Part shown: positions 29,042 to 38,430 of the stretch, piece after piece | Position numbering within the stretch: the first letter of the stretch is position 1 | How the letters are laid out: each line of letters starts with the position of its first letter | Assembly (NCBI GenBank): GCA_022865305.1 | Contig: JALHSP010000062.1 | Span: 1-64,000, forward strand | Source of the DNA: Bacteroidales bacterium | GTDB lineage: Bacteria > Bacteroidota > Bacteroidia > Bacteroidales > VadinHA17 | Reading direction: 5' to 3' | Length of the DNA stretch: 64,000 bases | The notes under the pieces: model-generated | What the model was told of the DNA's origin: nothing | The model's input: only the letters and a program-made list of their open reading frames with translations | The model's database searches: none | Made by a program: the position numbers and the translations under genes

Positions 29042-30886
29042 ATGGGTAAAAACTCAAAGGTTATAAAAAGAGAAGAAGTAGTTATCCGCTTTTCAGGCGA
29101 TTCGGGTGATGGTATGCAACTTACGGGCACCCTTTTTTCTGATACTGCTGCTATATTCGGTAATGACCTGTCAACTTTTCCTGATTATCCGGCGGAAATT
29201 CGTGCTCCGCAGGGAACAGTCGGAGGAGTATCCGGATTTCAGGTACATCTGGGACATTCTGAAATCAATACTCCCGGAGATTTTGCGGATGTTCTTGTTG
29301 CAATGAATCCGGCAGCAATAAAAGCCAATGCAAAGGGGATCAGACAGGGAGGTACGATTATCTTCGATAAAGATAATTTCACGGATAAGAATATTGAGAA
29401 GGCAGGATATAACCACGATCCTCTTGCAGAAGAAAAACTTGAACACTATAATGTCATCGCAGCACCCATCTCCTCGATGGTCAAAGAAGCACTGAAAAAC
29501 TTTGGACTCGATCCGAAATCGGTGGTGAGAACAAAAAATATGTTTGCTCTTGGAATGGTTTATTGGCTTTTCGACAGAAAACTAAAATATACCGAACAAT
29601 ATTTTGATAAAAAATTTGCTGAAAGACCTGAAATAGCTGAGGCAAATAAAGTTGCTTTAAGATCGGGATACTATTATGCTGAGACAATAGAAGCATTGAA
29701 TCCTGTTATTAAAATTGAACCGGCACAAATTGCACATGGTACATATCGGAATATTTGCGGCAATGCTGCAACAGCCTGGGGATTCCTGGCAGCCGCCGAA
29801 AAAGCAGGACTGAAGATTTTTATTGGATCATATCCGATAACTCCTGCAACAGGCATTCTGGAGGAGATGGCAGCACGTAAAGATCTGGGTGTCAAGAGTT
29901 TTCAAGCTGAGGATGAAATAGCGGGTATTTGTACCGCTCTGGGGGCAAGTTTTGCTGGAAACCTCGCTGTCACCTCCACATCAGGTCCCGGTCTCGCATT
30001 GAAGTCGGAAGCTATCGGCCTTGCTGTAATGGCTGAACTGCCAATAGTGGTGGTTAATGTTCAAAGAGGAGGTCCTTCCACAGGCCTACCAACAAAAACA
30101 GAACAGGCTGACCTGATGCAAGCTCTCTATGGCAGAAGCGGCGAATGCCCTGTTGTGGTAATTGCTGCAAGTACACCTTCCGACTGCTTCCAGTTTGCTT
30201 TTGAAGCAGCAAGAATTGCTCTGGAACATATGACCCCCGTTCTTCTTCTTACCGACAGCTATCTTGCTAACAGTTCTGAGCCGTGGAAGATACCAGAGAT
30301 GAACAAGTTGCCGAAAATAAATCCTCCTTATGCTGATAAAAAGGAAATCCCATTTCTGCCTTATAAACGTGATTGTAATACACTTGCACGGTCATGGGCA
30401 ATTCCTGGCACACCAGGACTTGAGCATAGGATAGGCGGGCTTGAGAAGACAGTCAAAGGAACCGTTTCATATATTCCCGAAAATCATGAACAGATGGTGA
30501 AGATCAGGGCTGAGAAAGTGGAAAAAATTGCAGATGAAATTCCGGATCTCATAGTTTACGGTGAAGACTCGGGTGACCTTCTTTTAACAGGCTGGGGTGG
30601 TTCCCGCGGTTACCTGATAACCGCAGCACAAGAACTGCAGGCTGAAGGATATAAGGTAAGTCTTGTTAATTTCAACTATATCAATCCCTTGCCAAAAAAT
30701 GTCAGGGAGGTATTCAGTAGATTTAAAAAGATAGTTGTTGCGGAATTAAATATGGGACAGTTTGCTGATTATCTGCGTATTAAACACTATGGATTTGATT
30801 TTAAGCAGATCAATAAAGTTCAGGGGCTGCCATTTACAATTAAAGAAATAAAAGAAAAATGCATTAAAATTCTGGAGGGTGAATAA
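29042..30886 (+). CDS. korA: 2-oxoacid:ferredoxin oxidoreductase, fused gamma-alpha subunit (2-oxoglutarate-type)
   Basis: 614 residues. The N-terminal gamma domain ('FSGDSGDGMQLTG') is fused to the alpha domain ('GSYPITPATGILEEMA', 'FQAEDEIAGICTALGASFAG'). Together with KorB it oxidises a 2-oxoacid, most likely 2-oxoglutarate, to the acyl-CoA with ferredoxin reduction. The pair occurs in many anaerobic Bacteroidetes. The KorB start lies 2 bp after this stop. The substrate (2-oxoglutarate or a branched 2-oxoacid) is inferred from the family. Confidence 0.9.
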   Translation: MGKNSKVIKREEVVIRFSGDSGDGMQLTGTLFSDTAAIFGNDLSTFPDYPAEIRAPQGTVGGVSGFQVHLGHSEINTPGDFADVLVAMNPAAIKANAKGIRQGGTIIFDKDNFTDKNIEKAGYNHDPLAEEKLEHYNVIAAPISSMVKEALKNFGLDPKSVVRTKNMFALGMVYWLFDRKLKYTEQYFDKKFAERPEIAEANKVALRSGYYYAETIEALNPVIKIEPAQIAHGTYRNICGNAATAWGFLAAAEKAGLKIFIGSYPITPATGILEEMAARKDLGVKSFQAEDEIAGICTALGASFAGNLAVTSTSGPGLALKSEAIGLAVMAELPIVVVNVQRGGPSTGLPTKTEQADLMQALYGRSGECPVVVIAASTPSDCFQFAFEAARIALEHMTPVLLLTDSYLANSSEPWKIPEMNKLPKINPPYADKKEIPFLPYKRDCNTLARSWAIPGTPGLEHRIGGLEKTVKGTVSYIPENHEQMVKIRAEKVEKIADEIPDLIVYGEDSGDLLLTGWGGSRGYLITAAQELQAEGYKVSLVNFNYINPLPKNVREVFSRFKKIVVAELNMGQFADYLRIKHYGFDFKQINKVQGLPFTIKEIKEKCIKILEGE

Positions 30887-30887
30887 T

Positions 30888-31910
30888 ATGGAAGAAACTC
30901 AGACATTTCAGTATACTCCGAAAGATTTTAAAAGTGATCAGGAAGTAAGATGGTGTCCCGGCTGCGGCGATCATGCTGTGCTGAATGCTGTTCAGAAAGC
31001 ACTGTCAGAACTTGGTATTCCAAAAGAGAAATTCGCTTTCATTTCGGGAATTGGCTGTTCATCAAGATTTCCATATTATATGGACACTTACGGATTTCAT
31101 GGGATTCATGGCCGGGCATCAGCCATTGCTTCCGGAGTTAAAATAGCCAATCCCGAACTTTCAGTATGGCAGATAACCGGTGACGGAGATGCTCTTGCAA
31201 TAGGTGGAAATCACTTTATCCATGCTATCCGCCGGAACATAGATCTTAATATCATATTGTTTAACAACCAGATATATGGACTTACCAAAGGACAGTACTC
31301 TCCTACGTCCGAAAAAGGTCTTGTTACAAAAACCTCTCCTTTCGGAACAATTGAAGAACCATTTTCAGTCGGAGAATTAGTCATCGGAGCAAAAGGAAAA
31401 TTCTTTGCTCGTACAATTGATGCCAATGTTACTCTTTCAACCCAGATATATATCGAAGCTGCACAACATAAAGGTACCTCGGTAATTGAGGTTCTTCAAA
31501 ACTGTATCATTTTCAATGATGGTATTCACGACGTTGTAGCAGGCAGGGAAGTAAGGGACGACAGAACAATTATCCTGAAGCATGGTGAACCGATGATATT
31601 CGGGAAAGATAGGAACAAAGGACTGGTACTGGACGGACTAAAACTCAAGGTAGTAACTTTAGGCGAGAATGGAATCTCTGAAAAAAATCTTCTTGTTCAT
31701 GATGCTCATGAATCCAATCCGGGAATTCAATATATGCTGGCAAATATGAAATATCCTGAATATCCGGTAGCATTGGGAGTCATCCGGTCAGTAGATGGGC
31801 ATACATATGATGCTGATGTCGAGGAACAGATAAAAAGTGTTCAGAAGGATGCAAAGATTAAATGCATGGATGATCTGATGGTAAGCGGATCTACATGGAA
31901 AGTGGAATAA
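30888..31910 (+). CDS. korB: 2-oxoacid:ferredoxin oxidoreductase, beta subunit
   Basis: 340 residues from the ATG at 30888; a GTG at 30879 is less likely. 'WCPGCGDHAVL' supplies cluster Cys, and 'GDGDALAIGGNHFIHA' with 'NIILFNNQIYGLTKGQ' makes the thiamine-diphosphate site. It forms the catalytic partner of KorA. The next gene follows after 88 bp and belongs to the receiver/ATP-grasp pair. Confidence 0.92.
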   Translation: MEETQTFQYTPKDFKSDQEVRWCPGCGDHAVLNAVQKALSELGIPKEKFAFISGIGCSSRFPYYMDTYGFHGIHGRASAIASGVKIANPELSVWQITGDGDALAIGGNHFIHAIRRNIDLNIILFNNQIYGLTKGQYSPTSEKGLVTKTSPFGTIEEPFSVGELVIGAKGKFFARTIDANVTLSTQIYIEAAQHKGTSVIEVLQNCIIFNDGIHDVVAGREVRDDRTIILKHGEPMIFGKDRNKGLVLDGLKLKVVTLGENGISEKNLLVHDAHESNPGIQYMLANMKYPEYPVALGVIRSVDGHTYDADVEEQIKSVQKDAKIKCMDDLMVSGSTWKVE

Positions 31911-31998: not shown

Positions 31999-34900
31999 AT
32001 GGACGAAAAAGATCAAATAAGCCCTGAATTTCACCGTTTGCTGCATGAACAGCATGAACGGTTAAAGGAGCTTGGATGTATCAATCAGACCACTTATATT
32101 CTAAAGGAAGGTAAGCCGATAGAAGAGACTCTCCAGCAGATAGTGCTGCTTTTACCTGCGGCCTGGCAATACCCAAAGTATACCGAAGCACGTATAACCT
32201 ACCGTGATAAAATATTTGAAACGCCCGGTTTTCAGGAGACAGCCTGGAAAATGAAACAGGAATTCAGCACTATTGACAGCGAAGATGGAGTTATAGAGAT
32301 CAGCTATACACAGGAATTCCGCTTTGAACATGAAGGTCCTTTCTTAAAAGAGGAGAGGGATCTTATCCAGAATATTGCCGGCTTGATAACAGGGTATATT
32401 AACAGTTCCAAAGCGCGTGATATCATACTAAAGAGGCAGGTGCCCGGGGAAGATGTTGAAGATCTTAAAGATTTGTCAAGCAGACAGCTGCTTCAGAAAT
32501 TCCTTGAACGCCATAATGCAGAGCGTGATGTTTTCCACGACCTGCAGCCTTTCAAGGTGAAGGAGATACTGCTAGTAGCAAACCTGTATGATGCCTATTC
32601 GATCGAAGGTGAGGGAAGATTCGCTGACCATATGCTTGGTGAGTACCACCAGATGAGCCTCACTTCTCTTCCGCGTTTAACCGGAGTATCCAGTGAGGAA
32701 GAGGCTTTTAAGAAGTTAAAGGCAAGACATTATGATATGGTAATTATTATGATCGGCCTTTATAAGGAAGGCTCGATGATGCTTTGCAGAAAGATCAAGG
32801 ACAAATATCCATATCTCCCTACATTCCTTCTCCTGAACAACCCTGAAGACGTTCCATATGTCAGGAAGCAGAAAGCTGCAGGGGTGCCCATCGATAATTA
32901 TTTTGTCTGGACAGGAGAATCAAAAGTGTTTTTCGCAATGGTCAACCTTCTTGAAGACAGGGTGAATGTCGATAATGATACAAAAAAGGGACTCATCGGA
33001 GTTATCCTGCTTGTCGAGGATTCGGCCGAATACTATTCCAGTTATCTTCCGATGCTTTATACCCTTGTCATGGAACAAACCAGGAATCTTATCGAGGATG
33101 TTTCCACAGATGAGCTGTATAAAGTATTAAAGCTTAAAGCGAGGCCAAAGATACTTCTTGCATTAAACTGGGAGGATGCAATAACCATATTCAACAAATA
33201 TGAGAATAACCTGTTGTGCGTGATTTCCGATCTCCGTTTCCCGAGAAACGGGGAGTACCATGATACGGCAGGTTATGAGCTCATTAAGCATATTAAGGGC
33301 ATATTACCGAATATTCCCACAGTGATTCAGTCATCCGATCCTGAAAATGCCAGATATGCCTATACTTTGAAATCAAATTTCATAAATAAGAATTCTGAAA
33401 GCCTGATGCAGGATCTGAAATCCTTCATAAGCTATTATATCGGGTTCGGGCATTTTGTTTACCGCGATGACAAAGGCCGTCAGATTGCAGTGGCAAAATC
33501 GATGAAAGAATTCGAGGCATATCTTGAAACAATTCCTGAGGATTCACTGGAATATCATGCCATGAGGAACCATTTTTCACAATGGCTCATGGCACGGGGA
33601 GAAGTGAAAATTGCCAGACAGATAAATCCGTTAAGGGTTTCCGAATTCAGCAGCGTTAAAGAACTTAGGGAGTATCTTCTCGATCTCGTAAGAAAACGGA
33701 GACGCGAGATGAATAAAGGCCGGGTTGTTAATTTTGAGGAATCTGCACTGGCTGATGAGACCAATGTGGTCAGCCTTTCCAGCGGGTCACTCGGAGGTAA
33801 GGGAAGGGGACTTGCCTTTATTAACACTTTGATTTATAGTTTTGAGCTTGGCAGACTGCTCCCCGGTATTAATGTTAAAACTCCGGTAACGGCAATCATT
33901 GGCACCGATGAATTTGATATGTTCATGGAGCGCAATCATCTCTGGGATAAAATAAAAGAGGAAAAAGATTATTCTGTACTGCAGAAGCTGTTCATTAACG
34001 GTAACCTCAGCTATACTCTGGAGAAAGAATTAAGGATATTCCTGAAACATATCAACAAACCCCTGGCAGTGAGATCATCCAGCTTGTTCGAGGATTCTCT
34101 TAGCCAGCCATTTTCAGGAATTTTCGGGACTTATCTCCTTCCCAATAACAACCCCGAATTTGAGATCAGGCTGCGACAGCTGACAGGAGCTATTAAGCTC
34201 GTTTTTTCTTCTATTTATTCAAAAAGTTCACGTACCTATTTCGAGGCTATCAATTATAAGATCGAACTGGAGAAAATGGCTGTGGTTATACAGGAAGTTG
34301 TGGGAAACAGGTTTGAGAATACCTTCTACCCTCATATCAGCGGCACGGCTCAATCCTATAACTTTTATCCTGTTTCACACATGACACCGGAAGATGGTGT
34401 TGCAGTGGTGGCAGTGGGCCTCGGGCATTATGTGGCAGAGGGAGAAAGAGCATTCAGATTCTCTCCGGCATACCCGAATCTGGATATCATTTCTCATAAA
34501 GATCTTTATAAGAACTCACAGGTCCATTTTTATGCTGTTGATATGGCAAAACAGGATGTTAACCTTCTCGATGGAGAAAAGGCCGGTCTTGTTTCCCTCG
34601 ATATCAGCAAAGCTGAATCACACGGCACTCTGAATCATTCAGCATCAGTTCTGAATATCGATAATGACACAATAGTTCCCGGACTTGACAGCCCGGGCCC
34701 GCGGGTTATTAATTTTGCCGATATCCTGAAATATAACTATATCCCGCTTGCATCAACCCTTAAGACCATTCTTGAGGTGGTTGAGGAAGCCACAGGTAAT
34801 CCGTCGGAAATAGAGTTCGCAGTTGACTCGACTAAGGATAAAGACGGGAATGCATCTTTTTATCTGCTCCAGATTAAACCATTAATCGGAAGTGGAGCAG

Positions 34901-35445
34901 GATATAATATTGATCCTGAAAGCATTAACTATAATGATCTGATCCTTGAAACTAAAAAGAGCATGGGCAACGGAGTGATCAGCGATATTTCAGATATTGT
35001 ATATATAGAATCGGAGGATTTCAATAATCTGCGGACTATAGAAATGGCAGAGGAAATTGACAGGATCAATGAGAATATGATGAAGGAGAACCGTCATTAT
35101 ATGCTTATTGGTCCCGGACGCTGGGGTTCAAGAGACAAATTCCTGGGGATACCTGTTGTATGGCCTCAGATATCTAATGCTAAAGTAATTGTCGAGGTCA
35201 GTCTTCCGGATTTTCACCTCGATGCATCACTTGGATCTCATTTTTTTCATAATGTTACATCTATGAATGTTGGTTATTTTTCAATTAATCCGGTTTTGCA
35301 TGAGGGAGTAATTTACTGGGAAAAGCTTAAAAAACAAGAGATTATTGAGCAGGGAAGATTCTTCAGGCATATACGGTTTGAAAAGCCGCTGTTAATTAGA
35401 ATGGACGGGAGGAAAGGTATTGCTGTTATCTCAATGGATCAATAA
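31999..35445 (+). CDS. Sensor/receiver-like/PPDK-N-type ATP-grasp protein (1148 aa)
   Basis: No described function recognised. Domains in order: a GAF-like N-terminal unit (about residues 15-140, with 'LLPAAWQYPKYTEARI' and 'EGPFLKEERDLI', as found before some histidine kinases); a degenerate receiver (about 186-320, no acceptor Asp); a second receiver-like domain (about 335-475) that keeps 'LLVEDS', the acceptor Asp411 in 'VISDLR' and Lys464 in 'FINKNS'; then a pyruvate-phosphate-dikinase N-terminal ATP-grasp (Lys601 in 'GSLGGKGRGL', Arg692 in 'AVRSSSLFEDS', 'LLQIKPL' 956-962). The C-terminal module has 'IGPGRWGS' (1037-1044) and 'GSHFFHN'. It lacks the phospho-His and PEP/pyruvate domains. 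The start follows korB by 88 bp and a paralogue comes next. Confidence 0.8.
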   Translation: MDEKDQISPEFHRLLHEQHERLKELGCINQTTYILKEGKPIEETLQQIVLLLPAAWQYPKYTEARITYRDKIFETPGFQETAWKMKQEFSTIDSEDGVIEISYTQEFRFEHEGPFLKEERDLIQNIAGLITGYINSSKARDIILKRQVPGEDVEDLKDLSSRQLLQKFLERHNAERDVFHDLQPFKVKEILLVANLYDAYSIEGEGRFADHMLGEYHQMSLTSLPRLTGVSSEEEAFKKLKARHYDMVIIMIGLYKEGSMMLCRKIKDKYPYLPTFLLLNNPEDVPYVRKQKAAGVPIDNYFVWTGESKVFFAMVNLLEDRVNVDNDTKKGLIGVILLVEDSAEYYSSYLPMLYTLVMEQTRNLIEDVSTDELYKVLKLKARPKILLALNWEDAITIFNKYENNLLCVISDLRFPRNGEYHDTAGYELIKHIKGILPNIPTVIQSSDPENARYAYTLKSNFINKNSESLMQDLKSFISYYIGFGHFVYRDDKGRQIAVAKSMKEFEAYLETIPEDSLEYHAMRNHFSQWLMARGEVKIARQINPLRVSEFSSVKELREYLLDLVRKRRREMNKGRVVNFEESALADETNVVSLSSGSLGGKGRGLAFINTLIYSFELGRLLPGINVKTPVTAIIGTDEFDMFMERNHLWDKIKEEKDYSVLQKLFINGNLSYTLEKELRIFLKHINKPLAVRSSSLFEDSLSQPFSGIFGTYLLPNNNPEFEIRLRQLTGAIKLVFSSIYSKSSRTYFEAINYKIELEKMAVVIQEVVGNRFENTFYPHISGTAQSYNFYPVSHMTPEDGVAVVAVGLGHYVAEGERAFRFSPAYPNLDIISHKDLYKNSQVHFYAVDMAKQDVNLLDGEKAGLVSLDISKAESHGTLNHSASVLNIDNDTIVPGLDSPGPRVINFADILKYNYIPLASTLKTILEVVEEATGNPSEIEFAVDSTKDKDGNASFYLLQIKPLIGSGAGYNIDPESINYNDLILETKKSMGNGVISDISDIVYIESEDFNNLRTIEMAEEIDRINENMMKENRHYMLIGPGRWGSRDKFLGIPVVWPQISNAKVIVEVSLPDFHLDASLGSHFFHNVTSMNVGYFSINPVLHEGVIYWEKLKKQEIIEQGRFFRHIRFEKPLLIRMDGRKGIAVISMDQ

Positions 35446-35457
35446 AAACATAAAATT

Positions 35458-38430
35458 ATGACGATCATTGAAGGAATCCTGGATCTGCAGAAATATGATT
35501 TTACCGACACATCATTCAACCTTCTTATGCAGAAACGGATCCACCGTGTTCTGATGATATGCAGTAATTATGATAATTACATGCTTGAGGAGGATGGCAG
35601 GATAGATGAGCAGATATTTAATGAATATGTTTCACTCAACCTCCGGTATCCTCCTACATTTGTTCAGACAGATAACGCAGAAGATGCTTTTAATATCCTT
35701 AAAGAAGGAAATGTTGACCTGGTAATTTCTATGCTGAGCCTGAAAGGCACAGATGTCTTTGCCCTGGCAAAAAAAATTAAATCACAATATGAAAATATTC
35801 CGATTGTAGTGCTTACATACTTTTCGCGGGAAGTATCCCTCCGGCTCGAGGGGGAAGATTTAAGCGCCATTGATTATGTTTTCTGCTGGTTGGGTGATGC
35901 GTCTCTTATCCTGGCAATCATTAAGCTGATAGAGGATAAAATGAATGCTGAACATGATATTGAAAATATAGGAGTTCAGGCAGTTATAATTGTCGAAAAC
36001 TCCATAAGGTATATTTCATCATACCTGCCGAATATTTACAGAATAGTCCTTTTGCAATCGCTGGATTTCCAGCGGGAAGCCCTGAATGAACACCAGAGAA
36101 TGCTTAAAATGAGAGGCCGTCCTAAAATACTCCTTGCAAACAACTTTAACGATGCTCTCAATCTTTATAAGAAATATAAATATAATGTCCTGGGTATAAT
36201 ATCGGATATCAGCTATAAAAGAGATAATATGAATGATGAAAATGCTGGTATAGAGCTCTGCAAAGTTGTTATGGCTGATGATGATAAAGTTCCGTTTCTC
36301 CTTCAATCTTCAAGCTCAGAACATAAGAGACTGGCTGAAGAGCTCGGAGCAGGATTTATAAACAAATATTCCAAATCCTTATCTATCGAGTTACGCAACT
36401 TTATAATACAAAACCTTGCCTTTGGTCCTTTTGTTTTCAGGAATCCTGACACTATGGAACCGATTGCAATAGCGACTGACCTCCAAAGTCTTCAGCAGAA
36501 GCTGCTTACAGTACCTGACAATACCCTTGAGTACCATGCAACAAGAAATCATTTTTCAAAATGGTTGAATGCCAGGGCACTTTTCCCTGTTGCCCAGATG
36601 TTCAAATATATCAGGAAAGAAGATTTTGAAACCCTTGATGAAATGAGACGGTTTCTTTATATCGCGATCTCAAGCTTCCGTCTTGGGAAAGGCAGGGGGG
36701 TTATAGCTAAATTTGACAAGACAAGCTTTGATGAATACCAGATTTTCTCACGTATCGGAGATGGATCTATTGGCGGGAAAGCCAGGGGGCTTGCTTTCAT
36801 TAACAGGATTATAAAAAATAACAAACTGTTCAATAAGTTTCCTGACGTTCTTATTACCATCCCTCGAACTGTCGTTTTAAGCACCGATATCTTCGATGAA
36901 TTTATGGATCATAATAATCTCTATTCGGTAGCTCTCTCCGACCTTTCTGACGATGAAATCCTTAACAGGTTCATTAATGCGGAATTGCCTGGACGGGTAT
37001 ACCAGGATTTTTATGCTTTTCTTGCTGTTTCACGAAATCACCCTGTTGCTGTAAGATCTTCAAGCAAACTGGAAGATTCACATTATCAGCCCTTTGCTGG
37101 TGTCTATTCTACTTATATGATTCCCAGGCTTGCTGATAACAAGCTAATGGTTAAAATGTTATCAGACGCTATTAAAGAGGTCTATGCTTCAGTATATTAC
37201 AAAGGAAGCAAGGCATATATGACTGCAACATCCAATGTAATTGATGAAGAAAAGATGGGAATCATACTGCAGGAGGTTTGTGGTAACAGACATGGTGATA
37301 TTTTCTATCCAACATTATCAGGTGTTGCACAATCGATTAATTATTACCCGATTGGATCTGAAAAGGCTGAAGACGGGATTGCAAATGTTGCATTTGGCCT
37401 GGGGAAGCTTATTGTTGAGGGAGGATTATCACTTCGGGTCTGTCCGCGACTTCCTAAAAAAATTCTTCAGCTCTATTCTCCCGAAATTGCTTTAAGAGAC
37501 ACACAAAAAGAGTTTCGTGCACTCGATCTGAATATTAATAGCTTTGTCCCATCCACAGACGACGGCGTCAACATACTTAAAATAGACATTAAGGATGCAA
37601 ACAATGACGGCGCCATGAGATATGTAGCTTCAACTTATGACCATAACAATAATATCCTCCGTGATGGAATAATTCATCCGGGCCTCAGGATAGTTACTTT
37701 TGCCGGTATCCTGCAGCACAATTTGTTCCCTCTGGCAGAAATTCTCACCACTCTACTTGATCTTGGGCAAAAGGAAATGAATAATCCGATTGAAATAGAA
37801 TTTGCTGCTAATCTCGAGACACCCTCAGGCACTCCCGGGATTTTCAATTTCCTGCAGATAAGACCTATTGTTCATACAGATGAGACTTATAACATTAGCC
37901 TCGAAAATGTTAAGACGGAGGATACAATCATATTCTCCGAATCAGCCCTGGGTAATGGTATTTTTAAAGATATTCATGATCTTATCTATATAAAACCCGA
38001 TTCGTTCAACGCGGCTCAGAATAAAAATGTCGCTTTAGAAATTGAAAAAATCAACTCACTGTTGGTCAAACAGGGAGCTGGATATGTCCTAATAGGCCCG
38101 GGAAGATGGGGTTCTACCGATCCATGGCTGGGTATTCCTGTAAAATGGCAGCAGATTTCAGCCGCCAGGATAATAATTGAATCAGGGCTAAAGAATTACA
38201 GGATAGATCCAAGTCAGGGAACCCATTTCTTCCAGAACCTTATTTCATTCCGGGTCGGCTATTTTACCATTAATCCATATATTAATGAAGGTTATTATAA
38301 TATAGATTTTCTGAACAGCCTAAATGTGATTTATGAAGACAGCTTTTTAAGACATGTAAGATTTGAAAAACCTCTCGATATTATGATTGATGGGAAGAAA
38401 CATAAAGGGGCGATCATGAAACCAAAATGA
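35458..38430 (+). CDS. Receiver-like/PPDK-N-type ATP-grasp protein, paralogue (990 aa)
   Basis: Paralogue of the preceding gene without its GAF-like part. A degenerate receiver (about residues 30-165) comes first, then a receiver-like domain (about 173-310) keeping Asp250 ('IISDIS') and Lys303 ('FINKYS'); the acidic pair is reduced to 'VENS'. The ATP-grasp has Lys441 ('GSIGGKARGL'), Arg533 ('AVRSSSKLEDS') and 'FLQIRPI' (798-804), and the same C-terminal 'IGPGRWGSTD' and 'GTHFFQN' module. No phospho-His or PEP-binding domain. It starts 12 bp after its partner, so they are made together. Databases would probably call it a PEP/pyruvate-binding protein; its job is not known. Confidence 0.8.
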   Translation: MTIIEGILDLQKYDFTDTSFNLLMQKRIHRVLMICSNYDNYMLEEDGRIDEQIFNEYVSLNLRYPPTFVQTDNAEDAFNILKEGNVDLVISMLSLKGTDVFALAKKIKSQYENIPIVVLTYFSREVSLRLEGEDLSAIDYVFCWLGDASLILAIIKLIEDKMNAEHDIENIGVQAVIIVENSIRYISSYLPNIYRIVLLQSLDFQREALNEHQRMLKMRGRPKILLANNFNDALNLYKKYKYNVLGIISDISYKRDNMNDENAGIELCKVVMADDDKVPFLLQSSSSEHKRLAEELGAGFINKYSKSLSIELRNFIIQNLAFGPFVFRNPDTMEPIAIATDLQSLQQKLLTVPDNTLEYHATRNHFSKWLNARALFPVAQMFKYIRKEDFETLDEMRRFLYIAISSFRLGKGRGVIAKFDKTSFDEYQIFSRIGDGSIGGKARGLAFINRIIKNNKLFNKFPDVLITIPRTVVLSTDIFDEFMDHNNLYSVALSDLSDDEILNRFINAELPGRVYQDFYAFLAVSRNHPVAVRSSSKLEDSHYQPFAGVYSTYMIPRLADNKLMVKMLSDAIKEVYASVYYKGSKAYMTATSNVIDEEKMGIILQEVCGNRHGDIFYPTLSGVAQSINYYPIGSEKAEDGIANVAFGLGKLIVEGGLSLRVCPRLPKKILQLYSPEIALRDTQKEFRALDLNINSFVPSTDDGVNILKIDIKDANNDGAMRYVASTYDHNNNILRDGIIHPGLRIVTFAGILQHNLFPLAEILTTLLDLGQKEMNNPIEIEFAANLETPSGTPGIFNFLQIRPIVHTDETYNISLENVKTEDTIIFSESALGNGIFKDIHDLIYIKPDSFNAAQNKNVALEIEKINSLLVKQGAGYVLIGPGRWGSTDPWLGIPVKWQQISAARIIIESGLKNYRIDPSQGTHFFQNLISFRVGYFTINPYINEGYYNIDFLNSLNVIYEDSFLRHVRFEKPLDIMIDGKKHKGAIMKPK

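Follow-up and report, generated by a model that had tools for sequence, protein, structure and literature searches.

The window analyzed here, the whole of a 64,000-nucleotide stretch from a Bacteroidales genome (contig JALHSP010000062.1, positions 1 to 64,000), carries two large genes, which we call P1 and P2, downstream of korA and korB, all on the forward strand like every feature given below. The korA gene (29042..30886) encodes the alpha subunit of a 2-oxoacid:acceptor oxidoreductase (TIGR03710, 654 bits against a cut-off of 482.75), and korB (30879..31910) encodes the beta subunit, with a TPP_enzyme_C match above its cut-off and a PorB_KorB match of 237.2 bits, somewhat below the cut-off of 261.9; the identity given to this pair in an earlier, sequence-only reading of the stretch agrees with these profile matches. 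As that reading had also described, P1 (31999..35445, 1148 aa) and P2 (35458..38430, 990 aa) are adjacent and intact open reading frames, P1 following the end of korB at 31910 after 88 bp and P2 following P1 after 12 bp. P1 comprises an N-terminal sensor-like domain, two receivers, a DUF5752-like segment, a PPDK_N ATP-grasp domain, and a C-terminal module, and P2 comprises two receivers, a linker, PPDK_N, and the C-terminal module; the two proteins are 36% identical. A scan for promoters and terminators gave no excess over shuffled sequences. Elsewhere in this genome, PPDK_N was matched only within a 915-aa frame on contig C34, an ordinary PPDK-like protein in which the domain is combined with PEP-utilizers (PF00391).

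Domains, invariant residues, and distribution of the P1/P2 family

PPD is the name used here for the P1/P2 family, and residue counts refer to an alignment of 71 proteins (the two from the window and 69 relatives) in P1 numbering, with a further check set of 27 proteins from other families of the same phylum. At the N terminus of P1, a GAF/PAS-like domain (residues ~9 to 145, 32023..32433) is discernible from model topology only: its modeled secondary structure, with two helices, four strands, and a helix, would fit a sensor domain of small size without proving one. The earlier assignment of this region as GAF-like found no backing in Pfam, where four N-terminal segments matched no GAF family at E ≤ 10.

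Each protein contains two receivers, of which one is degenerate. In P1, receiver 1 (~187 to 325, 32557..32973) has Met251 at the phospho-Asp position, and receiver 2 (~333 to 481, 32995..33441) is complete (E340, D341, D411, S445, and K464); in P2, receiver 1 (~27 to 165, 35536..35952) has Met92 at the phospho-Asp position, and receiver 2 (~173 to 320, 35974..36417) bears E180, N181, D250, S284, and K303, i.e., asparagine at the D341 position. The Pfam profile Response_reg recognizes P2 with 41.5 bits, above the cut-off of 30.2, and P1 with only 19 bits, below it. Across the alignment, the acceptor position of receiver 1 is methionine in 70 of the 71 rows, the remaining one (L121:145-2874) having no receiver 1, and the residues of receiver 2 are retained in nearly all rows (E340, 70/71; D341, 65/71; D411, 70/71; S445, 71/71; K464, 70/71). 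P2-like proteins of other families in the phylum, 17 in number, have threonine at the acceptor position of receiver 1, and their receiver 2 is again complete. The two receiver-like domains per protein proposed earlier are therefore present, but only the second is a complete one; because receiver 1 has methionine at the phospho-acceptor position, receiver 2 alone looks phosphorylatable, judging from its residues. No histidine kinase that might serve as a partner of receiver 2 was seen by eye near the genes in 45 + 16 clusters. In P1, receiver 2 is joined to the ATP-grasp domain by a segment (~484 to 575, 33448..33723) resembling DUF5752 (PF19027), which covers less than half of that profile and scores 30.2 bits when searched alone, against a cut-off of 23, and 21.9 bits, below the cut-off, within the whole protein; P2 reaches 15.0 bits, also below it.

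The PPDK_N domain (PF01326; P1 residues 597 to 962, 33787..34884; P2 residues 437 to 810, 36766..37887) is matched with 119.8 bits in P1 and 120.2 bits in P2 (E values of 2e-34 and 1.6e-34), against a cut-off of 27. The key lysine (K601 in P1, K441 in P2) and arginine (R692, R533) noticed earlier proved invariant in all 71 proteins, as did E939 and Q958 (P1 numbers), and the Lys, Arg, Glu-Asp, Glu, and Gln of the ATP-grasp are likewise unchanged in the 27 proteins of the check set; we take the Lys, Arg, Glu, and Gln to have the ATP-site roles assigned to these residues of PPDK_N. The basic residue two positions after the Gln is lysine in 22 of the 23 rows with a long N terminus, compared to 3 of the 48 without one. 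The reported absence of the other dikinase domains held up, in that no PEP-utilizers (phospho-His) or PEP-barrel family was matched in whole P1 and P2 at E ≤ 1 or in their C-terminal segments alone at E ≤ 10 in Pfam. Dikinase-type NCBIfam models give at most 51.9 bits with P1 and P2, against cut-offs of at least 500, and the ligases PigC and RedH are among the NCBIfam entries matched weakly. PPDK_N with its conserved Lys, Arg, Glu, and Gln is what P1 and P2 have in common with PEP synthase and pyruvate phosphate dikinase; neither a PEP barrel nor a phospho-His domain was detected in P1 or P2. The model of complete P1 (pLDDT 81.9, pTM 0.61) has structural matches to rifampin phosphotransferase, HpeI, PPDK, and PleD receivers. 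The best of these in the PDB are rifampin phosphotransferase (5hv1, 5hv2, and 5hv3) and HpeI (9goj), which have a PPDK-type ATP-grasp in common with P1. Rifampin phosphotransferase also comprises domains for its substrate and for the phospho-His, where P1 and P2 carry receivers and a C-terminal module without a match.

This C-terminal module (P1 residues 963 to 1148, 34885..35442; P2 residues 811 to 990, 37888..38427) contains the motifs GPGRWGS and HFFxN and is, as first noticed, conserved in both genes. R1041, W1042, D1046, and H1081 (H923 in P2) are invariant in all 71 proteins and equally in all 27 proteins of the check set; E1066 and S1077 are also unvarying in the 71 rows. Modeled alone from a 68-row alignment, P2 residues 804 to 990 reached a pLDDT of 91.3 and a pTM of 0.89, and a Foldseek search of the PDB with this model gave no chain at E ≤ 0.001 (best, 3.3e-2, with a TM score of 0.19) and no phospho-His protein among the best 50 of 601 matches. 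Pfam gave zero matches at E ≤ 10 to the two window copies, and hhalign against 26 phospho-His domains of the PPDK/PEPS/EI type gave a probability of 0.9%, in a comparison that had no positive control. On the hhalign and Foldseek results, we rejected the module as a recognizable phospho-His domain. The module as a free-standing domain was rejected as well, since all 33 matches to it in 99 genomes lie inside PPD-family proteins. Because a form of ~580 aa holds just PPDK_N, its sole Pfam match, followed by the C-terminal module, these two parts make up the core of the family. PPD is an uncharacterized family in which an ATP-grasp domain and a conserved module of unmatched fold are preceded by variable N-terminal domains; for its form from the Bacteroides record L133, NCBIfam gave no match at E ≤ 1e-20.

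Relatives of P2 (matches at E ≤ 1e-20) occur in 54 of 60 genomes in the relatives sample, the window's genome being counted, and in 17 of 99 genomes across the phylum, i.e., 16 of 98 when the own genome is set aside. They are found in 58 of 61 genomes of the genus of L133 and in 100 of 111 of its family, and the best 80 of 313 relatives (named records) include Bacteroides, Parabacteroides, Phocaeicola, Chlorobiota, and Marinimicrobia. The P1-P2 pair is kept in other genomes, as the earlier reading had wanted checked, and in three members of the window's genus (G013, G014, and G015), P2 is present with no P1 after korB. P1-type genes without P2 were seen in L031, L034, L115, and L118, with neighbors that by eye resemble nuoE, nuoF, and a gene for a large formate-dehydrogenase-like protein.

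korAB and GDH as genomic neighbors

In the window's genus, korAB lies within 3 kb of PPD in 29 of the 31 family-bearing genomes, the exceptions being G016, with korAB at 3.1 kb, and G026, whose contig begins inside korB; here, synteny is largely kept from bamA to folE on contigs of sufficient length. Of the 22 family-bearing genomes elsewhere in the order, only 3 have korAB within 3 kb, each with GDH alongside as well, and in the phylum sample, korAB adjoins PPD in none of the 15 PPD-bearing genomes examined. The consecutive order korA-korB-P1-P2-gdh was found in L028, L029, L032, and L088, with a 110-aa open reading frame between korB and P1 in L032. We rejected korAB as the defining partner of PPD, given that its adjacency is mostly lineage synteny (29/31 in the genus versus 3/22 in the order and 0/15 in the phylum), so that the co-occurrence of the genes with korAB, which was to be checked, holds within the genus but not much beyond it. 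The sequence-only reading had envisaged a sensory phosphorylating protein with the oxidoreductase as a possible target: the sensory ATP-grasp without dikinase acceptor domains stands, whereas phosphorylation of the oxidoreductase gained no specific support. That reading was right on the kind of protein and probably wrong on its main partner.

GDH genes, counted as matches to PF00208, which also covers other amino-acid dehydrogenases, lie within 2.5 kb of PPD in 15 of the 16 PPD-bearing genomes among the 98 others of the phylum sample (14 of 15 genomes in one distance survey, plus G068, with GDH 141 bp away). In the one exception, G073, GDH is on the same contig, ~47 kb off. Counted by locus, GDH is present in 16 of 20 and absent from L159, L165, L166, and L173, the last on a contig that ends 208 bp from the PPD gene; no open reading frame in these 20 loci was labeled KorA/B, MurI, OsmC, FabD, or FolE, all of which were queries in the same BLAST. 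At the order level, 9 of the 22 PPD-bearing genomes outside the window's genus have GDH within 3 kb, including the three with korAB, and 13 do not, several of them on short contigs; a wider locus set, in which some loci may repeat one contig, has GDH in 35 of 107. The gene orders observed are gdh-PPD, gdh-PPD-gdh, gdh-PPD-gdh-PPD, and gdh-short core-PPD, and in Bacteroidales, the gdh/PPD pairs are divergent or convergent, a variety that argues against one frozen gene block. Four of the GDHs compared with NCBIfam fall into two subfamilies, one of 444/445 aa (PRK14031 and PRK14030, above cut-off) and one of 428 aa, closest to GdhA_Arch, below cut-off.

Within the window's genus, GDH adjoins PPD in 0 of 31 genomes; in the window's own genome, two GDH genes lie near each other on a different contig, and the 12 kb around them contain no PPD. 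Co-loss of PPD and GDH was considered and rejected, as 17 of 19 Bacteroidales genomes that lack PPD keep GDH, compared to 16 of 17 that bear it; in the phylum sample, PF00208 is matched in 73 of 82 PPD-less and in 17 of 17 PPD-bearing genomes. If PPD acts on GDH, not every lineage requires it, and its action may be in trans. Gene adjacency itself reveals neither the direction of an effect nor its chemistry.

Bacteroides loci and a candidate for a trans-acting GDH factor

In the family of L133, 28 loci were hand-picked, of which 21 have GDH within four genes of PPD and 7 (L223, L225, L226, L227, L228, L229, and L231) do not. In nine loci of Bacteroides and relatives, PPD comes immediately 3' of a GDH of the 444-aa type, in convergent orientation and at a distance of ~60 to 300 bp: L212, L217, L220, L222, L232, L233, and L236 of the 28, together with L133 and L139 (L220 was counted after ignoring a 101-aa overlapping open reading frame). 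At several loci, including L112:3742-5853, an oligopeptidase-like gene (best NCBIfam match, oligopeptidase B, below cut-off) lies between a 445-aa GDH and PPD.

This placement is reminiscent of a 1996 study in which a 3-kb downstream segment reportedly restored GdhA activity in Escherichia coli in trans, with transcription unchanged. PPD genes are ~3 kb long, i.e., of the size of that segment. Reversible inactivation of the GDH of Bacteroides fragilis, too, was reportedly found in work from 1987. The 1996 study, by Baggio and Morrison, concerns the GDH of Bacteroides thetaiotaomicron and is cited in the reference list of PMC4539542; a passage of the same article describes three two-dimensional gel spots for one GDH protein in B. 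fragilis and suggests isoforms for such spots generally. P1/P2 relatives are candidates for the trans-acting GDH control factor of Bacteroides, and we offer this as a lead. A link of PPDK_N/receiver proteins to GDH was not found in the open papers covered, which included passages of PMC12596196, PMC4595636, and PMC5552732. When the B. thetaiotaomicron locus tags BT_1970-1973 were looked for in the literature, BT_1971 alone turned up, as a catalase, and we draw no inference from it.

Proposed role of PPD and alternative explanations

On balance, and with slightly more confidence than doubt, we propose that PPD proteins are sensor-controlled ATP-grasp regulators that act on GDH and, in a wider sense, on the 2-oxoglutarate/glutamate node fed by KorAB. 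Because Kor and GDH make and use 2-oxoglutarate, the associations with korAB and with GDH may reflect one theme. Information on the nitrogen or redox state would come in through the N-terminal domains together with the one receiver that is complete (D411 in P1, D250 in P2), and this signal would gate the use of ATP. A phosphoryl or pyrophosphoryl group, or ATP-driven remodeling, might then be passed on via the C-terminal module with its invariant Arg-Trp, Asp, and His, whose output would switch GDH activity. Of these steps, we are least sure of the chemistry at GDH. More tentatively, and with considerable doubt, we speculate that PPD is a sensor/receiver-gated ATP-grasp switch whose C-terminal domain of new fold phosphorylates GDH with the help of its invariant His, that it is the Bacteroides factor of 1996, and that some relatives add a nucleotidyltransferase for a second modification. 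GDH is one of the main entry points for ammonia in Bacteroidales, an order to which abundant gut bacteria belong. Were it controlled by PPD, the old result that GDH activity depends on a neighboring gene would have a candidate for that gene, one that offers an ATP site, an input for signals, and residues for mutagenesis, and dikinase-type ATP-grasps would gain a regulatory use, combined with a C-terminal domain for which no PDB match was found.

The alternative that survives best, although we judge it unlikely, is that PPD regulates several 2-oxoglutarate enzymes (Kor, GDH, and perhaps NADH/ferredoxin enzymes) or is merely co-expressed with them and has another protein target, GDH not being its specific one. 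The adjacency of korAB in the genus and in three other genomes of the order, the P1-type genes next to nuoE/nuoF-like genes (named by eye), and the lack of co-loss of PPD with GDH all point this way, but the proximity of GDH in 15 of 16 phylum genomes, in varied arrangements and with korAB in 0 of 15 examined, is harder to reconcile with it. PPD could serve more than one target around 2-oxoglutarate, and it would then be understandable that its neighbor is korAB in certain lineages but GDH elsewhere.

Somewhat less probable still, and compatible with an action on GDH, is the idea that the C-terminal module represents a phospho-His domain that has diverged very far, with ordinary dikinase half-chemistry from ATP to His and transfer of the phosphate to an acceptor. 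In the swivelling domain of PPDK, the His stands at the start of a helix that follows a strand; the model likewise places the invariant H1081 at the beginning of a helix preceded by a strand, and its (S/T)-H context looks alike by eye. This likeness is set against the negative hhalign comparison, with its missing positive control, the Foldseek search, and the Pfam search of the window copies described above. An improbable reading, which we rank just behind, makes PPD a metabolic enzyme whose ATP-grasp would phosphorylate or ligate some small compound derived from glutamate or 2-oxoglutarate, with the receivers as on/off control; it accords with rifampin phosphotransferase and HpeI as the best PDB matches and with the weak matches to PigC and RedH, but PPD has no known substrate domain, and tandem paralogues with sensor-like N termini appear more like regulators. 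A transcriptional role, in which the receivers would act at this level and P1 and P2 would control the expression of gdh or kor, is very improbable despite the receiver domains and the divergent gdh-PPD pairs, because Pfam scans of P1 and P2 gave no DNA-binding family and the invariant ATP site would be left unexplained.

Post-translational control of the glutamate/2-oxoglutarate node is known from the nucleotidyltransferases GlnD and GlnE and from mycobacterial GarA/OdhI. One form of PPD, of ~1060 aa (L174:6374-9562 and L176:7011-10178), also has a nucleotidyltransferase domain, a C-terminal NTP_transf_2 over its cut-off, whereas the window proteins have no match to such a domain and the chemistry of an ATP-grasp is unrelated. 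The gene for this form is found downstream of GDH, immediately so in L176 and with a short-core gene intervening in L174, and is followed at both loci by genes that by eye resemble a histidine biosynthesis cluster. Such a form would suit covalent modification in nitrogen control and proves nothing for P1 and P2.

A receiver and a PPDK_N protein have also been connected genetically. According to passages of PMC4001038, disruption of either of the nitrate-cluster genes DVU0246 (PPDK/ATP-grasp) and DVU0247 (receiver) allows Desulfovibrio vulgaris to grow in 100 mM nitrate, and this shared phenotype is a genetic link between such an ATP-grasp and a receiver. Like PPD, the pair combines a PPDK_N protein with a CheY-like receiver, here encoded by adjacent genes; unlike PPD, DVU0246 has the mobile domain of PEP-utilizing enzymes, its receiver is a separate protein, and those passages mention no GDH with the two genes (PMC4001038).

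Other relatives vary in front of the core. A 1550-aa relative of P1 (L053:3714-8363) appears by eye to repeat the sensor-like N-terminal domain several times, with no GAF match, and in an 878-aa relative (L056:7869-10502), another N-terminal domain, KaiC/RadA-like by eye, replaces the receivers; PPDK_N is the only domain matched in the latter, which keeps the GPGRWGS and HFF motifs.
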